Below are positions 2,538-30,058 of a stretch of 30,169 nt of DNA, piece by piece. Source of the DNA: a virus; the IMG/VR virus record IMGVR_UViG_3300045966_000006, positions 1 through 30,169 of that record. One strand, 5' to 3'. Position numbers and translations under genes: made by a program. The notes under the pieces were generated by a model. The model worked only from the letters and a program-made list of their open reading frames with translations. It did not search any database and had not been told where the DNA came from. Position 1 is the stretch's first letter. Each line of letters starts with the position of its first letter.

Positions 2538-2972
2538 TTAACCTTTCGTTTCCCAGTCCGATCGCGACTGCCAGCCGCCGCCGCGGCGTAGATAACCGCG
2601 CTGTTCCAGCCAGGCGATCACGTCGTCGACCGTGCCGGCGGCGTATTCGGCCGTCGACCGCTGTACGACGTCGCGAAAGTGTGTCTGCGCCGGACTGAAT
2701 CGTCCGCCGCTGGCTTTCTGTTCCAGGAACAGGACCGGCCGCGGACCGTCGCCGCCGGCGTGTCCTGGCAGAAAGACGACCAGATCGGAAATACCAGGCG
2801 TTTGGCACGTCCCCTGAAATTCGCTGACGAACGTGCCGCAGCACGGACACGGCCGACCGCGCGGGCGGCGCGTGCCGAGCTGGTACACGTCGGCGCCGAT
2901 CGTCGCGAACAGCTGCACCGTATTCGCCTGTTCGGTTTTTTCGAGTACCTGAAAATCGCGCCGGCGCGTCAT
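2538..2972 (-). CDS. VRR-NUC / Holliday-junction-resolvase-like nuclease
   Basis: This 144-residue protein shows the PD-(D/E)xK core of the VRR-NUC family: TPGISDLVVFLPG supplies the Asp, LFLEQKASGGRFSPAQ supplies the E-x-K and the usual S-P-x-Q helix start, and a C-terminal DDVIAWLEQRGYL helix closes the domain. Before the core, CPCC and a later GTCQ (three to four Cys) suggest an inserted zinc knuckle. Family members cut branched or nicked DNA; in phages such a protein could serve recombination or DNA processing. It joins its upstream neighbour by an ATGA overlap at 2969-2972. Confidence 0.82.
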   Translation of the reverse strand: MTRRRDFQVLEKTEQANTVQLFATIGADVYQLGTRRPRGRPCPCCGTFVSEFQGTCQTPGISDLVVFLPGHAGGDGPRPVLFLEQKASGGRFSPAQTHFRDVVQRSTAEYAAGTVDDVIAWLEQRGYLRRGGGWQSRSDWETKG

Positions 2973-3607: not shown

Positions 3608-3936
3608 TTACGGCGATCCAGTGTTAGAAACATCACCGTCAGTTTCACTTTCAGTTTCACTTAGTTTCACTTTCGACTTTGCGCCGGTTTCAGACCGACT
3701 TTCGCCTGGCCGGTGCAGCGCCAGAATCAGCCGATCGATCGCGTCCGGTCCTGGTTGATAGCCGGCCGCGGCGCCACGGTCCAGCCACGTCACGCAGCGG
3801 TCCACATGGACGACCGGTCCGCCCGTCACCAGGCCAAACTGCCGCGCCGCGTCCAGCGCCAGCAGCGCCGATGCCAGATCGACGGACCTCCTGCCATTCG
3901 GCCGGCGTCGCCGGATCCGCCGGCGGCGGTTTTCAT
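3608..3936 (-). pseudogene. Conserved small phage gene with an internal frame break
   Basis: Coding sense is VDLASALLALDAARQFGLVT, then GGPVVHVDRCVTWLDRGA, DAIDRLILALH and a charged tail rich in Ser, Glu and Lys. In that frame the only usable start is a GTG at 3829 that would cut off the first helix and has no ribosome-binding site. An ATG at 3936 overlaps the preceding stop as ATGA and encodes MKTAAGGSGDAGRMAGGP in a different frame; one missing base around 3885 would join them. The helix-rich layout suggests a small regulator, but I recognise no family. The 3' end contains the three 10-bp repeats. Confidence 0.5.
3641..3672. repeat. Three direct AGTTTCACTT repeats, possible integrase arm sites
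   Basis: AGTTTCACTT occurs three times without a mismatch at 3641-3650, 3653-3662 and 3663-3672, the last two abutting. They lie 48-80 bases from the end of the tRNA-like core. A looser inverse copy, AAGTAAGACT (8 of 10), is at 3500-3509 on the other side. Size, spacing and placement resemble arm-type sites of tyrosine integrases. The same bases encode the Lys/Ser/Glu-rich tail of the gene ending at 3608. Confidence 0.5.
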
Positions 3937-4574
3937 CGGCGTTTGCCTTTCGTCGCCGGCGGATCGATCGCTACCGTCGCCGGCGTCCGGCGTCGTCGTC
4001 GTCGACGTCCGGCGGCGTCGTGATCGGTTGCGCCCGGCCGGTCCGGCTGGCCTGGTCGGTTCGGCTGGCCTGGCTGGATCGGCTGACTGGGCCGAAGCCG
4101 CCGGCGACGCCGCCGGGCGTGTTCGGCGTCGTGTCGCTCATCTGTCGTACCTCCGACCGAACCGGCAGCACGATCGACGCCAGCGATCACGGCGTCGACG
4201 GCGGCTTGTGCCGCCTGACCGCGCCGCAGAAAGTCCGCCAGCAGGTCGCCGTCGTCCAGGTCGCGCCAGGTCGTCGCGTCGTCCTGGCTGGCGATCCAGG
4301 CGCCGACGTCGATTTCGATCTGAAAGGCATTGCGCGGCAGCGGCGCGATCACCTCGCGTTTGAATCGCTGATGGTAATGGACCGCCTGGCGCGGCGTCAG
4401 GCCAGCGTGTAACAGGATCGCCAGCGCCAGCTGCGCCGGTCCGCTGCCGGCATAGCCCCAACAAAAGCCGGTCGGCGAATGGTTCCAGACGGCTTGTGAC
4501 GGCCGCGGATCCAGCCGCCGGCCGTCGACATACACGACGCCGCCGCGATCGGTCCAGCGTCCGGTAATCGTCAC
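3933..4574 (-). CDS. DUF6166-like protein with low-complexity tail
   Basis: It starts at GTG 4574 (VTITGRWTDRGGVVYVDGRR), which overlaps the upstream stop as GTGA; 213 residues. The signature HSPTGFCWGYAGSGPAQLAL, then a YHQRFKREVIAPLP helix and a final IDVGAWIASQ match DUF6166-type phage proteins, whose function is unknown. After about residue 110 the product becomes Asp/Ala- then Arg/Pro/Gln-rich with PGQPNRPGQPDRPG repeats. The tail overlaps another small open frame with a strong ribosome-binding site, so the true C-terminus is uncertain, although the stop at 3933 does form an ATGA overlap with the next start. Confidence 0.65.
   Translation of the reverse strand: MTITGRWTDRGGVVYVDGRRLDPRPSQAVWNHSPTGFCWGYAGSGPAQLALAILLHAGLTPRQAVHYHQRFKREVIAPLPRNAFQIEIDVGAWIASQDDATTWRDLDDGDLLADFLRRGQAAQAAVDAVIAGVDRAAGSVGGTTDERHDAEHARRRRRRLRPSQPIQPGQPNRPGQPDRPGATDHDAAGRRRRRRRTPATVAIDPPATKGKRR
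3971..4141 (-). CDS. Overlapping 56-residue low-complexity open frame
   Basis: ATG 4141 is preceded by a perfect GGAGGT seven bases upstream. The product MSDTTPNTPGGVAGGFGPVS is followed by SSQASRTDQASRTGRAQ and an acidic DVDDDDAG end. It lies wholly inside the tail of the DUF6166-like frame. Either the two genes truly overlap, or an undetected base error shifts the DUF6166 frame so that it stops at the ATGA here and this gene runs on to 3933. The ribosome-binding site is the main support; the protein itself is disordered and unrecognised. Confidence 0.4.
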   Translation of the reverse strand: MSDTTPNTPGGVAGGFGPVSRSSQASRTDQASRTGRAQPITTPPDVDDDDAGRRRR

Positions 4575-4807
4575 AGGACCAGCCGCGCCGGAAACGCTTG
4601 CGGTTCGGACGGTCGGACGGCTGGCGTCGCGTGCAGTTCGCGATCGAATGCCGCGGTATCGTCGGCCGACTTGACCGCGATCCGCGTGACCATCATTTGA
4701 ATCGCGATACCGCCGTCCGTCGTGCCTTGCCAGATACGCGCCGGCACGCTGCCGCCGGCGGTCACGATGTCGATCACGCGATCGGTGCTTTCGATTGTGG
4801 CTTTCAC
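4571..4807 (-). CDS. 78-residue conserved hypothetical protein
   Basis: ATG 4807 overlaps the stop of the upstream gene as ATGA and the gene ends as GTGA into the DUF6166-like gene. The product begins MKATIESTDRVIDIVTAGG, then SVPARIWQGTTDGGIAIQMM and VTRIAVKSADDTAAFDREL, which suits a small beta-rich domain with one helix. I recall similar small proteins in the early operons of mycobacterial and soil phages without known function. Its first residues resemble those of the gene starting at 5544 (MKATVEV), so the two may be distant relatives or share only a start context. Confidence 0.7.
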   Translation of the reverse strand: MKATIESTDRVIDIVTAGGSVPARIWQGTTDGGIAIQMMVTRIAVKSADDTAAFDRELHATPAVRPSEPQAFPARLVL

Positions 4808-5322
4808 TGGATCTGCCTCCGCATGAATTCGCGCAGTACGGACAGCATGTCGTCGCGGTTTGCCGTGCTGAGATAGAACGTCGCGCCGCCTTCACCTTCA
4901 CCTGGCAGTCCGGTCGGACCGTAGGAAAACAGAAACAGCGTGAAACCGAAGCCGGCCGGCATATCGGCCTTTAGCCGCCGTCCAAGGTCGCGTAATCGGC
5001 TTTCGATTTCCGGACTGCGGACGTTGAAGCCGGCCGAGGCGTCAACGACGACCGGCGGCGCCGCCGGCGGCGCGGTTTCGGCCGCGTCCGCAGTCGCGAA
5101 CGCTTCGCATTCGGCTTGCAGCGATTCCAGGATTTCGACGCCTTCGTTTTCGCCGATCGCGTCGTCGCCGATCGTGTTCGCGACGGCCATGAGCAGCGCG
5201 TACGAACCGGCGTAAAAGGCGCGGCGGCATTCGTCGACCTGGATCGCCGGCGCGTCGTCTGGAATGACGCCGGCGCGGTAGCTGGCGAACATATCCGCGA
5301 TTGACAGCCGCGGCGGCGTCAT
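4804..5322 (-). CDS. 172-residue protein of two small phage domains
   Basis: ATG 5322 overlaps the stop of the frame-broken upstream gene as ATGA, although the same reading frame is open through it. Residues 1-75 (IADMFASYRAGVIP through DECRRAFYAGSYALLMAVAN, then NEGVEILESLQAECEAF) are helical. An Ala/Pro linker follows. Residues about 100-172 (SRLRDLGRRLKADMPAGFGF, FYLSTANRDDMLSVLREFMR) form a second domain that I know as a separate small phage protein. Both parts have unknown roles. The fusion is the notable point. It sits in the middle of a chain of overlapping genes downstream of integrase. Confidence 0.7.
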   Translation of the reverse strand: MTPPRLSIADMFASYRAGVIPDDAPAIQVDECRRAFYAGSYALLMAVANTIGDDAIGENEGVEILESLQAECEAFATADAAETAPPAAPPVVVDASAGFNVRSPEIESRLRDLGRRLKADMPAGFGFTLFLFSYGPTGLPGEGEGGATFYLSTANRDDMLSVLREFMRRQIQ

Positions 5323-22793: not shown

Positions 22794-24204
22794 ACCAGTC
22801 CTCCGCGCTGAGGGCTTTGTGGAAGGCATCGCGGAATGCCGCGTTCAGGTCGTCGTCGTCCAGGTCGTCGTCGTCCGCCGGCAGCGGTCCGCTGACCGCC
22901 GGCGTCGCCGGCGGCGGCTTGCTGAACGGCTGATCCTGGTCGCGTTCGGCCAGCGCCGTCAGACTGTAATTCTGCTGCTGCATGTACGGCGTATCGCCGC
23001 CGTCGACCGGTCCGAGGCCAAAGTAGCGGTACCTGGCTTCGTTCGGCGTCATGGCGCCCGATCCGATCGCGTCGACGGCGGCTTTCGTCCGCGTCGGCGA
23101 ATCCAGCCAGATCAGATCGTCGATCGCGAATTCAGTGCCGTACGGCCGGATCAGTTCCAGTCCGTCGTCGAGCGCGAATTCCAGCGCCGTCATATGCGCT
23201 TGCAGACATTGTGAATAGAACTGCTGTGTCGCCTGTTCGCTGTTCGCCGCCGGCGTCGCCTTGCTGGTATTGACCAGGCCGATCGGAACGTGGAAACAGC
23301 CGGCGATCGTTTCGTCGGACCAGTGCAGCTGATCGATCAGCTGTGCATCGGCGGCGGATTGTGCCGTGGCTTCGTATTTCATGCCGGCGTCGAGGACCGC
23401 GGCTTTGCCGACGTTCGTGCCGCCGTGCCGCGCGTACCAGTTTTCGAGGATCGCGTCGGCCTCCTGTTCGGTCAGCGGTAACGGCGACGTCAGGACGCCG
23501 GACGGCTGCGATCCGTTGGCAAAGAACGTCGTGGAACTTTCCTGAATGCGGAGGCCTTGCAGCGCCGCCAGGCCGCACGCATAGATCGGACTGACGCCGA
23601 CCAACGGATGAAACAGCGGTACCATGAGGTCGTGAATCAGTTCGCGCGCCGGCACGGCCGGAAAGTTCGGATCGAATCGATCCGGCGTCAAGCCGTTCAG
23701 GTCGTCGCGTCCGAGCTGGTAATAGACCGCGCCGTCCGGCGCGACCAGCGGCGTGACTTTCGTCGGATCCAGCACGTACAGCGCGACGACGACGCCGCGG
23801 CCGTCACGCTGTTTCAAGACATAGGTATTACCGTGGAGCAATTTCGATGCGATCCACAGTTCCACGAATTTCTGGATCGACTGGTAGCGGTTCGGCTTCC
23901 GCAGGACCGGCGAATACGCCGGACTGGTCGTGTCGGTCCACACCGTTCCGAGGTCGGTTTCCGTCGCGCTGACCAGGCGTAGTCGGCACTTTCCGATCGT
24001 TTCGGCGATCAGCGTCGCGCAAGCAAAGACGGTCGGATTCTGTGTGACGTCCGATAGCGCGATTTCTTCGTTCTTCTGCCAGGCGCCCGTGTACGGTTCA
24101 CGGACGACCGGCCAGCTGCCGCGGTACCGGCGTCGTTCCGGTACCGGCGTCAGCGGACCAGTCGCCCGCGTCAAGCGAAGTTCGTAGCCGAACGGCAGTT
24201 TCAC
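22780..24204 (-). CDS. Portal protein (HK97 family)
   Basis: It starts at GTG 24204, overlapping the capsid stop as GTGA; the open frame reaches further upstream but lies on the capsid gene. The 474-residue product contains PTVFACATLIAETIGKCRLR, FVELWIASKLLHGNTYVLKQ, VSPIYACGLAALQGLRIQES, FFANGSQPSGVL, and FHVPIGLVNTSKATPAANSE, a series of hallmarks of HK97-type portals. The C-terminus is acidic (DDDDLDDDDLNAAF). The dodecamer forms the DNA entry pore. Unusually, the gene follows the capsid gene rather than preceding it. Confidence 0.93.
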   Translation of the reverse strand: MKLPFGYELRLTRATGPLTPVPERRRYRGSWPVVREPYTGAWQKNEEIALSDVTQNPTVFACATLIAETIGKCRLRLVSATETDLGTVWTDTTSPAYSPVLRKPNRYQSIQKFVELWIASKLLHGNTYVLKQRDGRGVVVALYVLDPTKVTPLVAPDGAVYYQLGRDDLNGLTPDRFDPNFPAVPARELIHDLMVPLFHPLVGVSPIYACGLAALQGLRIQESSTTFFANGSQPSGVLTSPLPLTEQEADAILENWYARHGGTNVGKAAVLDAGMKYEATAQSAADAQLIDQLHWSDETIAGCFHVPIGLVNTSKATPAANSEQATQQFYSQCLQAHMTALEFALDDGLELIRPYGTEFAIDDLIWLDSPTRTKAAVDAIGSGAMTPNEARYRYFGLGPVDGGDTPYMQQQNYSLTALAERDQDQPFSKPPPATPAVSGPLPADDDDLDDDDLNAAFRDAFHKALSAEDWYAAA

Positions 24205-26153
24205 GATCGCCGTTTGTGATTCGTTTCCGGTTCCACGTCGACGGCCGGCGTCGGCTGGCGCCGTCCGGTCGCCGGATTCAGCATGAGCGACGGCGTATAG
24301 GTCGCGCCGCTGACGAACTTCACGGCGTTCGGCGTGATCCGTTTCCAGTTCACGTACCGCTCTGCGCGGAGGCCGACCAGGTTTTCCTGCCACAGCGACC
24401 GCATAACGACAGTCGCATCTGGCGGATTCATCGGCGCCGAATCCATCTGCACGGACGCCTCTTTCGACACGTCGACCGTCACCTGGCCGTCGTCGGCGTA
24501 CAGGATGTACGGCGCCGCGACGCCAATGACCCAGCCGTTCGCGGTATTCGACGTGATCACGTTGAAACCTTCGGCGTTTCCGCCTTTGACGCCGATGCCG
24601 GGGAACAGTCGCGCGCCGCTGACCGGATCACGCTGCCAGCCAAGCGTGAACGCATTCGTTTCCGACATGATCAGCGTCAGACTGCCGAGGCTGACGTTGG
24701 CCGTCGCGAATGCGCTGATGATCGCGTGCAGGTCCGCGACCGCATCACCCGTCGACGCGATCGGCGCGATGCCGTTCGTGATCGACGCCGGCGAAATGTT
24801 CGGCACTTCCGCGATCGCCGGATCGATAAATTGCTGATCGAGAAATTGCGCGATGCCTTTGATCATGTCGTTCCGGACCAGTTCTTCCGCGGCCGGCGTC
24901 GACAGCTTGGCCAGTTCGTCCGTGATGATAATGATCCCCGCGGCTTTCGCGATGCCGAGCGCGGTGGTACCGAACGCCAGTTTCGTGACCGGCTTCGGCG
25001 CACCCTGACCGACCCAGCCGTACGATCCGCCGGCGGTCTGCGCTGGTACCGTGACGTTGAACGGTACTTTCCGCAAACCGTTCGCGCCGCCGGTCGGCAT
25101 CTGGCCGAGGATCGTCGCCGGCCGTAGCAGGTCGATAAATTCGCCGGTGATGTTACTGACCTGTGCCAGCACGCCGGCCCACGCCGGATCGGTCGTCGAA
25201 CCTGGCGCGACCGCCGCTTTCACCCAGAGTTCGACTTCTGGCGTCGAATCAAACTGTCGCGCGTACTGGAGCGCCTGGTAGCCGTCGCCTTTCGCGCGTG
25301 CCAGACACATCAGCGACCGCACGAACAGATGCCCTTTGGGCAGTTCGGCGGATCGGACCTGGATCGTCGGCGTGCGGACGTCGCCGGCTTTCGTGACGAT
25401 CGGCGCCGCTGCCGCCATGTTCGCTTTCTCGAGGACGGACAGCCGCCGCAGCTGATCGTCGCAGCCGGACAGCTGACCGGCCAGGTCGTCGTACGTTTTC
25501 GCTTCGTTGCCGTCCAGCGTCGTCGTCCGACCGGACATCATGTCCGTCATTCGCTGCAGGAGCGGACCGCGAACGCCGGTCCAATGTGAGATCTGTTCCT
25601 GAATGGTTTGCATGGTGTTGGGTACTGCGGGAACGTCCGCGACGGCGGACACATGACGGCCGGACGCGGCCAGGTCGAACGCTTTGATTCCGGTAATCGT
25701 TGCGGACGGATTCGCCGGAACGGTGACGAGCGAGAGTTCAACGACTTCTGCGCGCGTGAAATGGTAGCCGCCGGTCGCCAGCGGCTTAATCCAGTCCGGT
25801 ACGGCGCGGTAGCCGATCGAAACGCCTTTCAAAAAGCCGGCGCGGATTGACTGCCAGGCCTCCTCAATGCGATCGCGCAGCGCCGGCGGATCGCTGATCG
25901 GTTTCAGCCAGGCGGTAAACGTCACGCCGGCGGCGGTCGGTCGGCCGAACGTCGCGACGCCGACCGGTCGTTCCTTGTCGTGGAACAGCAGGAGCGGCAG
26001 TTCGGCCGCGAATTCCAGGCCGAGCGGATCGATCACGTCGCCGCGGCGGTCCGGTTCCGGCGTCGTGGCAATGCCGGTGATGCGCCGTTCGTCGGCGTCG
26101 AACGCCTTGATCTGAAAGTCGTACCAGACGCGCGTGTCGGTTGTGCGGTCCAC
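24201..26153 (-). CDS. Prohead protease fused to major capsid protein
   Basis: Reads from GTG 26153 (weak ribosome-binding site); 650 residues. Residues 1-165 are an S78-type prohead protease with H58 (LLLFHDKERPVG), S112 (FLKGVSIGYR) and E139 (EVVELSLVTVPANPSA) as a likely triad. Residues about 180-250 form a helical delta/scaffold-like segment. Then comes the HK97-fold major capsid protein (FVRSLMCLARAKGDGYQALQ, VPFNVTVPAQTAGGSYGWVG, KAAGIIIITDELAKLSTPAA, DQQFIDPAIAEV, YVNWKRITPNAVKFVSG). The fusion is processed by self-cleavage after shell assembly in related systems; the cleavage site cannot be fixed here. Confidence 0.93.
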   Translation of the reverse strand: MDRTTDTRVWYDFQIKAFDADERRITGIATTPEPDRRGDVIDPLGLEFAAELPLLLFHDKERPVGVATFGRPTAAGVTFTAWLKPISDPPALRDRIEEAWQSIRAGFLKGVSIGYRAVPDWIKPLATGGYHFTRAEVVELSLVTVPANPSATITGIKAFDLAASGRHVSAVADVPAVPNTMQTIQEQISHWTGVRGPLLQRMTDMMSGRTTTLDGNEAKTYDDLAGQLSGCDDQLRRLSVLEKANMAAAAPIVTKAGDVRTPTIQVRSAELPKGHLFVRSLMCLARAKGDGYQALQYARQFDSTPEVELWVKAAVAPGSTTDPAWAGVLAQVSNITGEFIDLLRPATILGQMPTGGANGLRKVPFNVTVPAQTAGGSYGWVGQGAPKPVTKLAFGTTALGIAKAAGIIIITDELAKLSTPAAEELVRNDMIKGIAQFLDQQFIDPAIAEVPNISPASITNGIAPIASTGDAVADLHAIISAFATANVSLGSLTLIMSETNAFTLGWQRDPVSGARLFPGIGVKGGNAEGFNVITSNTANGWVIGVAAPYILYADDGQVTVDVSKEASVQMDSAPMNPPDATVVMRSLWQENLVGLRAERYVNWKRITPNAVKFVSGATYTPSLMLNPATGRRQPTPAVDVEPETNHKRRS

Positions 26154-26202: not shown

Positions 26203-26406
26203 TCAGCGCGGCGGCGTCGCCGGCGGCGGACGGCGCGTCATGGCGTCGCGGATCTGGTCGCGGATCCAGTCGTTGACGGACTGCCTGGCGCGTTTCGCTT
26301 CGGCATACGTTTTGTCGTACAGCTGCGCCGGTAAGACCAGATGCACGTCGACTGACCGGTGAGCGGGATCCAGGCGCGGACGTCCGCGGCGGTTCGTGTC
26401 GGTCAT
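26203..26406 (-). CDS. Small ribbon-helix-helix-like protein
   Basis: This encodes 67 residues; the ATG overlaps the TerL stop as ATGA. RRGRPRLDPAHRSVDVHLVL (basic tail and strand) is followed by PAQLYDKTYAEAKRARQSVN and DWIRDQIRDAMTRR (two helices), the outline of an Arc/CopG ribbon-helix-helix protein. Such a DNA-binding protein within the late operon might regulate head gene expression or bind packaging DNA; there is no direct evidence. A gap of 49 bases separates it from the protease-capsid gene. Confidence 0.72.
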   Translation of the reverse strand: MTDTNRRGRPRLDPAHRSVDVHLVLPAQLYDKTYAEAKRARQSVNDWIRDQIRDAMTRRPPPATPPR

Positions 26407-27950
26407 GGCGGCGCTCCTTTGTAGACGTAGACATGCGGCGTCGGCTTCGGCGCCGAATGCCGATCCATCATGTCGATCGCGATGATTAGCGCGACGACGC
26501 CATCGATTCGCGCCGTCGACTTATTCTTTGACGGTTTCAGGTTGCCGGCGGCGTCCGATTCGACGCTGACGTTCGATACGTTCCAGCGTAGAACCGGCTG
26601 GCCGCTATGCCGCAGCGTGCGACCGACGACGGCGCGTTCTAATGCTTTCGTCGGCGACGACATGGCCGCGAACCCCTGCCGGACCGGCACGCACAGAAAG
26701 CCGTCATGCGTTTTCAGCCGTTCGGTCAGATCGGTCGCGTTCCACGGATCGAAGCCGATCGCGATCACGTCGAATTCGTCGTCCCATTGCTGCAGCGTCG
26801 CGCGAACGGCTTCGTAGTCGACGCTGTTACCTGGCGTCAGCTGCAGCTGGCCGTCACGCGCCCACACGTCATACGGCACGCGGTCACGCCGGATCCGATC
26901 CGCCAGGTTGTCGGCCGGCAGATAGAACTGGGTCAGCACGTCGAAGCCGTCGCCGTCTGGAAACACGCCGACCGCCGCGGTCAGATCCGTCGTCGCCGAC
27001 AGGTCCAGGCCGACAAAGCAGCGGCGCCGCCGCAGCGCGGCGCGGTCGATCGCCTGGCGACAGCCGTCCCACGCGACCAGCTGCAGCCAGCGTGACGCCT
27101 GTTCGGTCCATTGGTTCAGGTACAGCCGGCGGAACGTGTTTTCCTGTGCCGGTATGACTTCGGCGCGACGGCCGGCGATCCGCATTTCTTCCAGGCTGCG
27201 AAAGTCGCCGAGCGCCGGATTCGCTTTGCGCCAGACGCGCTCCGACAGCCAGTTCGCGTCCTGTGCCGCGGCATAGATCACTGGCAGGAACGTCGGATCC
27301 AGGTTCGGATTCTCGCGGACGCGGAGGCCGTGTTCGTGCAGTTCGTAGCAGATCGAATGCCGGTCATAGCCGGCGGTCGTCGGAATAAACATCAGCGGAT
27401 TGCGCCGGCCGCCCGTCGACGTCGACAGCACGTCATACAGTTCGCGGTTCGGCGCCGCGTGCAGTTCGTCGTAGACGATCGTGCTGGCGTTGAATCCGTG
27501 TTTCGTGAACGCTTCGGAACTGATCGCACGGTAGAACGATCCTGACGGCCGATGGACGATCCGCTTTTGCGAATCGATCAGATCGCATTGGGCCTCCAGC
27601 GTCGGATCGTTGCGGATCATCTGTGCCGCGACGTGGAAACAGATCGCCGCCTGGTCTTTGTCGGCGGCGGCGCTGTAGACTTCGGCGCCGAGCTCCCCAT
27701 CGCCAAACAGACCGTACAGCGCGACCGCCGCGGCCAGTTCCGTCTTTCCGTTCTTCCGCGGAATTTCCAGCAGCACCGTCCGATACTGCCGCGTGCCGTC
27801 GCGCCGCGTGCGAAACGCCTGACGAATAATCCGTTCCTGCCACGGTCGCAGATTGAACGGCCGGCCGGCCCAGTCGCCTTTGGTATGCGTCAGATTGTTG
27901 ATAAACCGGACGGCGCGTGACGGACCAGGATCGGCGCGGCGCCGCGTCAT
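26403..27950 (-). CDS. Terminase large subunit (Terminase_1 type)
   Basis: This encodes 515 residues; ATG overlaps the glycosyltransferase stop as ATGA. The ATPase domain has a Walker A-like IPRKNGKTE (63-71) with K70-T71 variant spacing typical of this family, Walker B and catalytic Glu in TIVYDELHAA (157-166), and an FIPTTAGYD motif-III region. The RNase H-like nuclease domain has D316 (GLDLSATTD), D401 (GFDPWN) and D483 (RIDGVVALIIA). The motor uses ATP to thread DNA into the prohead and cuts the concatemer, probably at cos with the HNH protein. Confidence 0.96.
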   Translation of the reverse strand: MTRRRADPGPSRAVRFINNLTHTKGDWAGRPFNLRPWQERIIRQAFRTRRDGTRQYRTVLLEIPRKNGKTELAAAVALYGLFGDGELGAEVYSAAADKDQAAICFHVAAQMIRNDPTLEAQCDLIDSQKRIVHRPSGSFYRAISSEAFTKHGFNASTIVYDELHAAPNRELYDVLSTSTGGRRNPLMFIPTTAGYDRHSICYELHEHGLRVRENPNLDPTFLPVIYAAAQDANWLSERVWRKANPALGDFRSLEEMRIAGRRAEVIPAQENTFRRLYLNQWTEQASRWLQLVAWDGCRQAIDRAALRRRRCFVGLDLSATTDLTAAVGVFPDGDGFDVLTQFYLPADNLADRIRRDRVPYDVWARDGQLQLTPGNSVDYEAVRATLQQWDDEFDVIAIGFDPWNATDLTERLKTHDGFLCVPVRQGFAAMSSPTKALERAVVGRTLRHSGQPVLRWNVSNVSVESDAAGNLKPSKNKSTARIDGVVALIIAIDMMDRHSAPKPTPHVYVYKGAPP

Positions 27951-28777
27951 GGTTTCAACGTCCGCAATTTCAAGCCGTAATCATTCGGCGTCGGATCGAT
28001 CACGACGTCGGCTTTCCGTCGTAGCGGCGTATCGAAGCCGCGCCAGGCGTCGCGGACGACATGCTGCGGACGGCGGTACCGGCGATCGACGCTGACGACG
28101 CCAGGCCAGCGGCGGACCAGCGATCGCGCCATCTGTAGCCGGCCGTCGCCGCGATAGATCGGATGATTTCCGCCTTTCATGGTGAGGGTCTGCACCTTTT
28201 TCACGACGAACGCATTGACCAGGACCGTACACCAGCCGCCGGCGAGGACCTGCAGACACAGATCGGTATCGTCGTTGTACAGCGATCGCCAGCGGTACGG
28301 AATCGTGTTTAGGACCAGCGAACACGAATAGACGTGAACGTTCAGGTAGTACGGCGGCGGATTGTCTTTCGCGACGACATGCCAGGCGTAATTGAGACCG
28401 GCGATCGCGACGTTTTCGTACCGATCGGCAAAGTCCTCGCAGACCGCCAGCGCGACGCCGAACGGACAGCTGATTTTCCGATGCCCCCATTTCCGATAGG
28501 CGCGGTAAATGTTGTCGTCCAGCTGCCAGTGCCGAACCTGGCCGGCGGCGGTCGCATGGTCTTTGATCCAGTTCCGCGCCGCGATCAGCCCGCGATTCGC
28601 AAACGGCAGCGTCAGCAGTCGATCGGCGCCGAAGTGTGCGGCGTACGCGTCGTGTTCCAGCGGTTCAACGACCAGGCGGTACGGCGTGCCTTCCGCGTCC
28701 AGACAGCGCGGCGTCTGACAGACCGCGGCGCGACCTTTCGACGGAATGTAGATCGGATAGCGCGGACGTCGCGCCAT
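27947..28777 (-). CDS. TET-associated-type glycosyltransferase (TAGT-like)
   Basis: This encodes 276 residues from ATG 28777, with GGAGG ten bases upstream; the longer frame upstream is a shadow of the ParB gene. The start PIYIPSKGRA, then FANRGLIAARNWIKDHA, WQLDDNIYRAY (LDDN 86-89, the DxD-like metal/nucleotide site of a GT-A fold), the YNDDTDLCLQVLAGGWCTVL block (167-186) and TMKGGN...YRGDGRLQMA (199-216) follow the family of phage glycosyltransferases linked with TET/JBP dioxygenases. Members are thought to transfer sugars onto hydroxymethylated pyrimidines in phage DNA. Here it lies between TerS and TerL with no TET gene in the window. Family assignment is by remembered motifs; sugar and base are unknown. 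Confidence 0.82.
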   Translation of the reverse strand: MARRPRYPIYIPSKGRAAVCQTPRCLDAEGTPYRLVVEPLEHDAYAAHFGADRLLTLPFANRGLIAARNWIKDHATAAGQVRHWQLDDNIYRAYRKWGHRKISCPFGVALAVCEDFADRYENVAIAGLNYAWHVVAKDNPPPYYLNVHVYSCSLVLNTIPYRWRSLYNDDTDLCLQVLAGGWCTVLVNAFVVKKVQTLTMKGGNHPIYRGDGRLQMARSLVRRWPGVVSVDRRYRRPQHVVRDAWRGFDTPLRRKADVVIDPTPNDYGLKLRTLKP

Positions 28778-28781
28778 GCGG

Positions 28782-29588
28782 TCAGTCCTCCGATTCGTCG
28801 AACGTTTCCGCGTGGTTCGGCGTGCGTGTCCGCAGCGGATACCAGATCGATTGTTTCGATTCGCGCACGACGACATGCTTTTTCGTCGCGCCGATCGCCT
28901 TGAAAAAGGCGGCGCGATCCGCCGGCGTCTGACAGAACACATGCACAGTCAACGGCGTGTCCTGGTCGTTCGTCGACGGCAGACCGACCCATTCCGCCGC
29001 GGCGTCATGGTCTTTGATTTCCGACGCCGGCCGGCTGACCATGACCAGCGCCGCCAGCTGTTCGGCGTCGTAGCCGGTCCCCAGCAGCGTCGTCAGGTCC
29101 GAATCGCTGATCGATTTCAGCATGTCGGTCAGCTGCCGGTCGTCGACGTCGGCCAGCTGTGCGATCTGGTTATCGCCGATCAGCAATTTGAGCGCTCGCG
29201 GATCGGACGGCGCCAGGTCCAGGCGAATCACCGGAACCGCCGGCAGCTGCAATTTCTTCGCGGCTTCGACGACGCCGTGACCGGCCAGGATCGTCCAGTC
29301 ACGCGCGACGACGACGTTTCGATACAAGCCGTGTTCTTCGATCGATCGACACAAATGGTCCAGCTGTTCGGCGGTATGCGTGCGGTAGTTCTGCGGGTGC
29401 GGACGTAAGGTCGCGACGTCGGCGGATTCGCGCCGCAGCACTGGCGCGGGCGCGCCGTTCGTGCGGCGGCGTGCGGCCGTCGACGCTGGCCGCGTTGAAC
29501 CGCGTTTCGCCGACACTGGCCGCGTCTTTCCGCGTTTGGCCGTTACAGGTTTCTGGCGTCGGTCACGCCGGACAGTAGCCCGTCCCAC
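28782..29588 (-). CDS. ParB/sulfiredoxin-fold domain protein
   Basis: Starts at GTG 29588 (AGGA ten bases upstream); an internal GTG at Val25 is possible. Residues 1-50 are basic with two copies of a [TS]AKRGxTRP repeat. Residues 56-125 are a ParB N-terminal-like domain: LRPHPQNYRTH, LCRSIEEHGLYRNVVVARD, ILAGHGVVEAAKKL (Val where an Arg is common in the GHGR motif). A helical part follows to about 185, then a beta-rich C-terminal domain (LTVHVFCQTPADRAAFFKAI) closing with KQSIWYP. Such proteins occur next to DNA-modification enzymes in phages. It overlaps TerS by 46 bases and the glycosyltransferase start follows after four bases, so the pair is likely co-translated. Confidence 0.85.
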   Translation of the reverse strand: MGRATVRRDRRQKPVTAKRGKTRPVSAKRGSTRPASTAARRRTNGAPAPVLRRESADVATLRPHPQNYRTHTAEQLDHLCRSIEEHGLYRNVVVARDWTILAGHGVVEAAKKLQLPAVPVIRLDLAPSDPRALKLLIGDNQIAQLADVDDRQLTDMLKSISDSDLTTLLGTGYDAEQLAALVMVSRPASEIKDHDAAAEWVGLPSTNDQDTPLTVHVFCQTPADRAAFFKAIGATKKHVVVRESKQSIWYPLRTRTPNHAETFDESED

Positions 29589-30058
29589 TTGCTACCGTCC
29601 TGCGAGGAATGGTCCGGTAACGCCGTGATCCTGGCGCGTCCACTTGGCGTCAATCCGAGTTCGACCCATAGCCGGTGACAGTGTGCCAGAGCTTTGTCGG
29701 CGATCGCCAGGAACGGATTCGCGATCGGTACGCCTTTCGGCGTTTTGACCAGCATGCCGAGCGCGCGGATTTTCGTCTGTGCTTCCAGGTACCGCGACCA
29801 TTGTTGGCACAGCGCCAGCAGGACCGTCCGTTCCGCTTCCGTCGCCAGGCGGCAGTTCCGCAGCATCGGCGCGACGCGGCGCCACTCGGCTTCGGCGATC
29901 GGATCGCCGGCCAGTTCGATCGGCGGCGTGTCGAACGCCGGCGTCGCCGCCGGCGGCTTCGCTTCGCCTGGATTGATCCGACGCTTGCCAGGATTACCGC
30001 GAATCAGCCGCATTTGTGTCGGCTGCGGTCGGCGTCCGCTGTTCCAGTTACCGGCCAT
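29543..30058 (-). CDS. Terminase small subunit (P27 family)
   Basis: This encodes 171 residues from ATG 30058 (MAGNWNSGRRPQPTQMRLIR); a TTG at 30070 in frame would fall within the hairpin. The hallmark RLIRGNPGKRRINPGEAKPP is the P27-like TerS N-terminus. The middle holds two helices (IAEAEWRRVAPMLRNCRLAT, VLLALCQQWSRYLEAQTKIR) and a helical C-terminus (LAIADKALAHCHRLWVELGL, TPSGRARI). The protein recognises the packaging site and recruits TerL. It is the first gene of the late operon. Confidence 0.95.
   Translation of the reverse strand: MAGNWNSGRRPQPTQMRLIRGNPGKRRINPGEAKPPAATPAFDTPPIELAGDPIAEAEWRRVAPMLRNCRLATEAERTVLLALCQQWSRYLEAQTKIRALGMLVKTPKGVPIANPFLAIADKALAHCHRLWVELGLTPSGRARITALPDHSSQDGSKWDGLLSGVTDARNL

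Follow-up and report, generated by a model that had tools for sequence, protein, structure and literature searches.

Known systems and the locus analysed

Phage TAGT glycosyltransferases, their GT-A fold, the existence of solitary TAGTs and the presence of ParB proteins beside modification enzymes are already known. The TAGT of phage T6 adds a second glucose to glucosylated hydroxymethylcytosine (hmC) and has been placed as a sister of GT2, and the DNA glucosyltransferases of T4 are GT-B enzymes (PMC13216743). TAGT occurs without the alpha-glucosyltransferase (alpha-GT) or the beta-glucosyltransferase (beta-GT) in 288 of the 753 phage genomes that carry such glycosyltransferases, and these solitary TAGTs are a stated puzzle (PMC13216743). 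ParBc proteins have been reported next to CmoX carboxymethyltransferases (PMC12783734), and DpdB is a ParB-like ATPase required by the tRNA-guanine transglycosylase (TGT) DpdA (PMC12839542). The present analysis concerns IMG/VR virus record IMGVR_UViG_3300045966_000006, a linear phage fragment of 30,169 bases considered in its entirety (the window; G000 in our set), in which a TAGT gene follows a gene coding for a protein with a ParB_N fold and a small C-terminal domain, here called the partner domain. The pairing of TAGT with this domain looks near-obligate. A role in DNA modification is the best reading of the module, given the TAGT identity of the enzyme, the ParB_N fold of its neighbour and the conservation of the pair.

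The window TAGT shares family PF20691, the GT-A fold and conserved acidic motifs with the beta-glucosyl-HMC-alpha-glucosyltransferase of T2 and T6. Enzymes that may form or decorate an acceptor were searched for in about 47–50 related records, including contigs of 50–90 kb, all of which may be fragments. In contrast to the T2/T6 system, loci of the window type have an extra, apparently obligate partner domain, almost no hydroxymethylase or TET, and no T4-type alpha-GT (PF11440) or beta-GT (PF09198), each found in 0 of 48 records by searches that detected the T4 positive control. The TET-TAGT-methyltransferase cluster of Persicivirga/Nonlabens phage P12024L likewise includes a family member, but this measures 252 aa, lacks the partner domain and adjoins the TET gene, whereas ParB-linked loci are devoid of TET (one positive among 50 related records). 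In the cultured phages Aeh1, POP12, PTm1, Kuja and Vibrio 1.076.O and 1.124.O the partner domain and the TAGT occur as in the window, but in a single polypeptide in which the domain is N-terminal; in the window they are encoded by two genes, and a ParB_N domain is added. Phage ParB-methyltransferase fusions (phrog_498) and the ParBc neighbours of CmoX have in common with the window protein the ParB_N domain, a frequent location near terminase and a partner acting in DNA modification. In the window, however, the partner is a glycosyltransferase joined via a new domain, and no methylase was found. The Dpd system serves only as a model of how a ParB-like protein may assist a base-modification enzyme. 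Membership in this 7-deazaguanine system is not claimed: there is no DpdC, Pfam scans of the window genes revealed no TGT, and the genes nearest to ParB are TerS, TAGT and TerL. What appears to be new within the literature searched is the partner domain in its three arrangements, the near-obligate association of this domain with TAGT, and the TET-free ParB-TAGT module; ParB-TAGT neighbourhoods may have been mentioned before in other papers.

Organization of the cassette

Four genes, all on the minus strand, are arranged in the sense of transcription as TerS, ParB, TAGT and TerL.

29543..30058, minus strand: terminase small subunit, TerS (PF05119, E 6.5e-23)
28782..29588, minus strand: ParB_N-domain protein with C-terminal partner domain, 268 aa (phrog_620, E 1e-27; phrog_498, E 7e-28)
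29214..29417, minus strand: ParB_N (ParB/Srx-type) core, residues 58–125 (PF02195 stretch; Spo0J 6sdk matched by PDB sequence search, E 4e-5)
28821..28997, minus strand: unnamed WGMP...SIWYP domain, partner of TAGT, residues ~198–256 (here WVGLP ... KQSIWYP)
27947..28777, minus strand: TAGT-family glycosyltransferase, 276 aa, predicted GT-A fold (PF20691, E 1.5e-40; phrog_842, E 2e-36; AlphaFold2 model)
28514..28519, minus strand: DD of the LDDN motif (D87-D88), candidate DxD site for metal and nucleotide-sugar, invariant in 47 TAGTs
28262..28276, minus strand: NDDTD motif, residues 168–172, with N168, D170 and D172 invariant in the 47-TAGT alignment
26403..27950, minus strand: terminase large subunit, TerL (PF20441, E 2.7e-41; PF03354; phrog_9, E 9e-158)

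The ParB gene starts with GTG and overlaps TerS by 46 bases, a 4-base gap separates ParB and TAGT, with a GGAGG motif just 5' of the TAGT ATG, and the TAGT/TerL junction is an ATGA overlap. The coordinates thus confirm the original prediction, made from the letters of the DNA, that the four genes are coupled by overlaps or a four-base gap.

The partner domain

The KQSIWYP end of the ParB protein, already pointed out in the same prediction, is real and is part of a conserved domain of about 60 residues, which starts with W-x-G-[ML]-P and ends with [KT]-x-S-x-W-[YFW]-P. Neither Pfam nor NCBIfam has a model that matches it, and a standalone copy gave no match among the PHROGs. In the AlphaFold2 model of the ParB protein the domain forms a small C-terminal alpha/beta unit. 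A profile built from the ParB proteins also matched, with its C-terminal part only, short genes (63–112 aa) located directly upstream of TAGT in phages having no ParB there. Three arrangements are found in the window and 197 viral loci, a set not de-duplicated whose numbers are indicative: the domain is fused to ParB in 87 cases, standalone in 90, and fused to TAGT in 11. It was not seen in 7 loci, in all of which the TAGT lies within ~510 bases of the contig end. Short partner-domain queries run against 50,697 phage records matched TAGT-fused genes only, and no ParB form was found in this cultured-phage collection.

In a test independent of TAGT, viral contigs were scanned for the DNA pattern encoding WVGMPE[FY], which samples one form of the motif. 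At least 118 loci were retrieved, with the motif in an open frame in all those listed. The TAGT is fused, immediately adjacent, or past one gene (within ~1.1 kb) on the same strand in 115 of the 118 listed loci; in the remaining three, which have no TAGT, the contig ends 38–294 bases beyond the domain gene. A large group of solitary TAGTs gains in this way a defining feature, as the partner domain is present wherever a locus extends far enough upstream. The notion that the ParB protein itself is the essential partner of TAGT did not hold, the invariant partner being the small C-terminal domain and not ParB_N.

Conservation of the ParB-TAGT pair

ParB and TAGT move as a unit between otherwise unrelated phages. 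Of 80 related viral loci, most have ParB immediately ahead of TAGT, hence their adjacency is not due to chance. Open reading frames (ORFs) were clustered from 14 contigs of 30–82 kb, most of them fully read, which otherwise share little: TAGT is common to all 14 and ParB to 13, and no third shared gene was found among them, the next clusters, where checked, corresponding to opposite-strand ORFs of the pair or to head genes. Distances between TAGTs and between ParB proteins are correlated (Mantel r 0.84, 0 of 5000 permutations; 0.70 in a closer set). The TerL genes adjoining the pair belong to four distinct clusters, namely TerL_ATPase, Terminase_3 and two Terminase_6 groups. The commonest gene order is ParB-TAGT-(TerS)-TerL-portal. 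In a survey of gene neighbourhoods the pair proved conserved, and the TerS-ParB-TAGT-TerL order uncommon; locus L002 features the window order with an extra gene. In L048 (586–2168) the order is reversed, TAGT preceding the ParB-domain gene.

The genes inserted between the domain and TAGT are sugar-decoration chemistry. They encode FkbM methyltransferase, other class-I methyltransferases, sulfotransferase, nucleoside diphosphate (NDP)-sugar epimerase, GT4, a DXD-type glycosyltransferase, or a second TAGT, and several loci carry tandem TAGTs. Standalone-domain forms have replication-type genes as neighbours, coding for a DnaC-like loader, NinG and an SSB-like protein. In a genome collection spanning 84,980 species only 12 loci were found; since 11 of these reside on contigs of metagenome-assembled genomes, no usable host assignment could be made.

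The TAGT glycosyltransferase

The TAGT-like identity proposed for the window enzyme is borne out by the profile searches listed above, in which PF20691 scored 139.8 bits (curated cut-off 27.5). The AlphaFold2 model has a mean predicted local distance difference test (pLDDT) score of 90.6, and comparison with GT-A enzymes by Foldseek and VIA-align predicts a GT-A fold, the matches including GalNAc-T2, TarP, and hyaluronan and cellulose synthases. GalNAc-T2 ranks first (Z 14.7, 226 residues, root-mean-square deviation 4.3). The assignment to GT-A is consistent with the sister relationship to GT2 published for T6 TAGT (PMC13216743). In an alignment of 47 TAGTs, which includes relatives 42–65% identical to the window protein, residues D87, D88, E114, N168, D170, D172, G202, G203 and R213 are invariant; D87 and D88 are also kept in the cultured-phage TAGTs compared. 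By its motifs and model, the enzyme looks intact. A PDB sequence search found no TAGT relative, and no T-even phages were among the tblastn matches of the window TAGT.

The ParB-domain protein

A ParB-domain neighbour had also been predicted, and Foldseek, together with the phrog_620 and phrog_498 matches, supports a ParB_N fold. The AlphaFold2 model resembles ParB, Noc, KorB and Srx folds (5k5d, E 1.7e-6; 6sdk, E 6.6e-6). The phrog_498 match covers only positions 20–179 of the 633 of the profile, the NCBIfam model parB_part scores 19.6 bits (below its cut-off of 58.45), and the basic N-terminal region of ~50 aa is modelled at low confidence. No methyltransferase domain was detected in the protein by Pfam scan. 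A canonical role in chromosome partition was rejected, as the protein lacks the GERR motif, no DNA-binding helix-turn-helix is evident in the AlphaFold2 model, and the gene is linked to TAGT.

ParB genes next to other enzymes were looked at in ten cultured-phage records with ParB and no TAGT, chosen from a list and therefore not random. ParB-TerL is found in Vibrio phage R19R, and ParB lies near TerS-TerL in RcHotPocket; ParB-methylase lies near TerL in P8625 and Javan117. In Prochlorococcus phage MED4-184 (CPAG_00033-00037) ParB is followed by a queuine tRNA-ribosyltransferase (TGT), and then by TerL. ParB-like genes adjoin Mom in Arthrobacter phage Martha (gp69-gp71), and a PAPS-reductase-like gene in Arthrobacter phage Kovu (gp5-gp6). 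Read most simply, these cases suggest that phage DNA-modification enzymes are commonly assisted by ParB-like proteins, the genes of which tend to reside in the late operon. TAGT joins methylases, CmoX, TGT and Mom as enzymes that phages pair with ParB-like proteins.

Proposed role of the module

The pair is best read as a self-contained, two-gene module, which probably serves to glycosylate phage DNA: the comparisons suggest that TAGT is the glycosylating enzyme, that the WGMP-SIWYP domain docks it, and that the ParB protein handles DNA, possibly driven by nucleoside triphosphates (NTPs). The TAGT would move a sugar from a nucleotide-sugar donor. The WGMP-SIWYP domain, present as a gene of its own, as the tail of ParB or as the front of TAGT, would dock the enzyme and couple it to its substrate. 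The ParB/Srx-fold domain would probably handle DNA in an NTP-dependent manner, in line with the ParB-like proteins found next to phage methylases, carboxymethyltransferases, TGT and Mom enzymes. The outcome would be virion DNA glycosylated and resistant to host nucleases. We infer DNA as the acceptor, the binding of NTP and DNA by ParB, and protection.

Several data weigh against this role. The sole characterised TAGT, from T6, transfers sugar to sugar, and the closest structural matches of the window enzyme are polysaccharide and protein glycosyltransferases (GT2/GT27). In the window and in nearly all related records, all possible fragments, no acceptor-forming enzyme was detected. The ParB_N score (22.9 bits) is slightly under the Pfam cut-off of 26.3, and the usual phosphate-binding arginines of ParB (GERR) are replaced by GHGV (AGHGVVEAA versus GERRxRA); for these two reasons, the use of NTP by the window protein is not assured.

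Search for acceptor-forming enzymes

The original prediction had sugars transferred onto modified bases in connection with TET/JBP enzymes, which the records do not support. A TET/JBP gene was found in only one of 50 (contig L017, G009, with the domain at 27176–27553 and matches to N6/N4-methylases as well), and thymidylate-synthase-type hydroxymethylases in two of 47. No TET was detected by Pfam among the genes scanned in the window, itself a fragment. When most of the genes predicted in the window and in four 53–55 kb contigs were scanned with Pfam, no hydroxymethylase was listed, one listing giving the best 25 of 28 families. C5-methylases are present in 6, and N6/N4-methylases in 10, of the ~47–50 records. 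The usual acceptor-making enzymes are thus mostly missing within this group of solitary TAGTs. Absence across the record set, combined with the lack of a third travelling gene, is a stronger point than absence from a single phage. Among cultured phages, a thymidylate-synthase-family gene is present in all five large ones checked that carry a TAGT of the sub-family; in Vibrio phages 1.076.O and 1.124.O (~47 kb, records labelled partial) neither TET nor a thymidylate-synthase-family gene was found. With their fused form and their lack of a known hydroxymethylase, these two phages allow the nature of the acceptor to be put to the test.

One may tentatively suppose that the module is self-sufficient, the ParB/Srx NTPase and WGMP-SIWYP domains presenting canonical DNA, and the TAGT glycosylating an unmodified base, or another universal acceptor, with no prior hydroxymethylation. 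If true, such DNA glycosylation would represent an as yet undescribed chemistry. No firmer is the idea of a conventional route, in which TAGT acts on a 5-hydroxymethylpyrimidine made by a TET or hydroxymethylase encoded outside the 30 kb fragment, as in P12024L and T-even-like phages; this would still be DNA glycosylation. The side-by-side TET, TAGT and methyltransferase genes of P12024L, the thymidylate-synthase-family genes of the five large cultured phages, the TET of L017 and the fragmentary nature of the window fit such a route, but it has to face the rarity of both enzyme types in a set including contigs of 50–90 kb, the lack of both in the two Vibrio phages, the failure of any third gene to move with the pair, and the four 53–55 kb contigs, for most predicted genes of which no such enzyme was listed by Pfam.

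DUF5131 (PF07505), which we take to be radical-SAM-like, was considered as a general acceptor maker and rejected, since it is found in only 6 of 47 TAGT records (G004, G010, G013, G019, G023 and G034); it may provide extra modification chemistry in these contigs. Two standalone-domain TAGT loci, L049 and L054 (G030 and G033), have deoxynucleoside-monophosphate-kinase-like and thymidylate-synthase-family genes on the same contig, a gene set which looks like a nucleotide-level hydroxymethyl route.

A target other than DNA, whether a host polysaccharide or a protein (terminase, portal, capsid, or ParB itself), seems unlikely. The GT2/GT27 nature of the nearest folds, the lack of a base-modification enzyme and the location among head genes would suit this, and the accessory FkbM methyltransferase, sulfotransferase and GT4 genes suit any glycan. 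The only characterised TAGT, however, has DNA as its substrate (PMC13216743), the partner domain forms one protein with a ParB domain which otherwise accompanies DNA-modification enzymes, and the standalone forms adjoin replication-type genes. Glycosylation of phage DNA is in our opinion the reading to be preferred.

Association with terminase genes

Proximity to terminase was scored as a TerL gene within 4 kb on the same strand, in loci with enough sequence. TerL is nearby in 61 of 76 ParB-fused loci, versus 6 of 40 standalone and 0 of 5 TAGT-fused loci, so the terminase link goes with ParB and not with the glycosyltransferase (ParB-fused versus standalone, Fisher 8e-12, uncorrected for relatedness). 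The original prediction had tied sugar transfer to packaging. This link is not supported, as proximity to TerL is specific to ParB, and ParB genes without TAGT are also near terminase. The position is for the same reasons weak evidence for glycosylation at packaging time, being ParB-specific and shared by the ParB genes of other modules; late expression explains it more plausibly than a mechanical link does. That ParB docks the TAGT on the terminase complex, DNA being glycosylated while entering the head, is improbable: the frequent proximity of ParB-fused forms to TerLs of four separate clusters and the translational coupling in the window are in its favour, but TerL is rarely near the standalone and never near the TAGT-fused forms, and the neighbourhood, being home also to ParB genes from other modification modules, is not peculiar to the sugar enzyme.

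Other genes of the window

Prohead protease (Peptidase_S78) and major capsid domains reside in a single 650-aa frame at 24201–26153 (minus strand), as in phrog_617. In the left part of the window, where neighbours are otherwise unassigned, a DUF6166 protein (E 2e-21) is encoded at 3933–4901 (minus strand). A weak match to VRR-NUC nucleases is found at 2538–2972 (minus strand).

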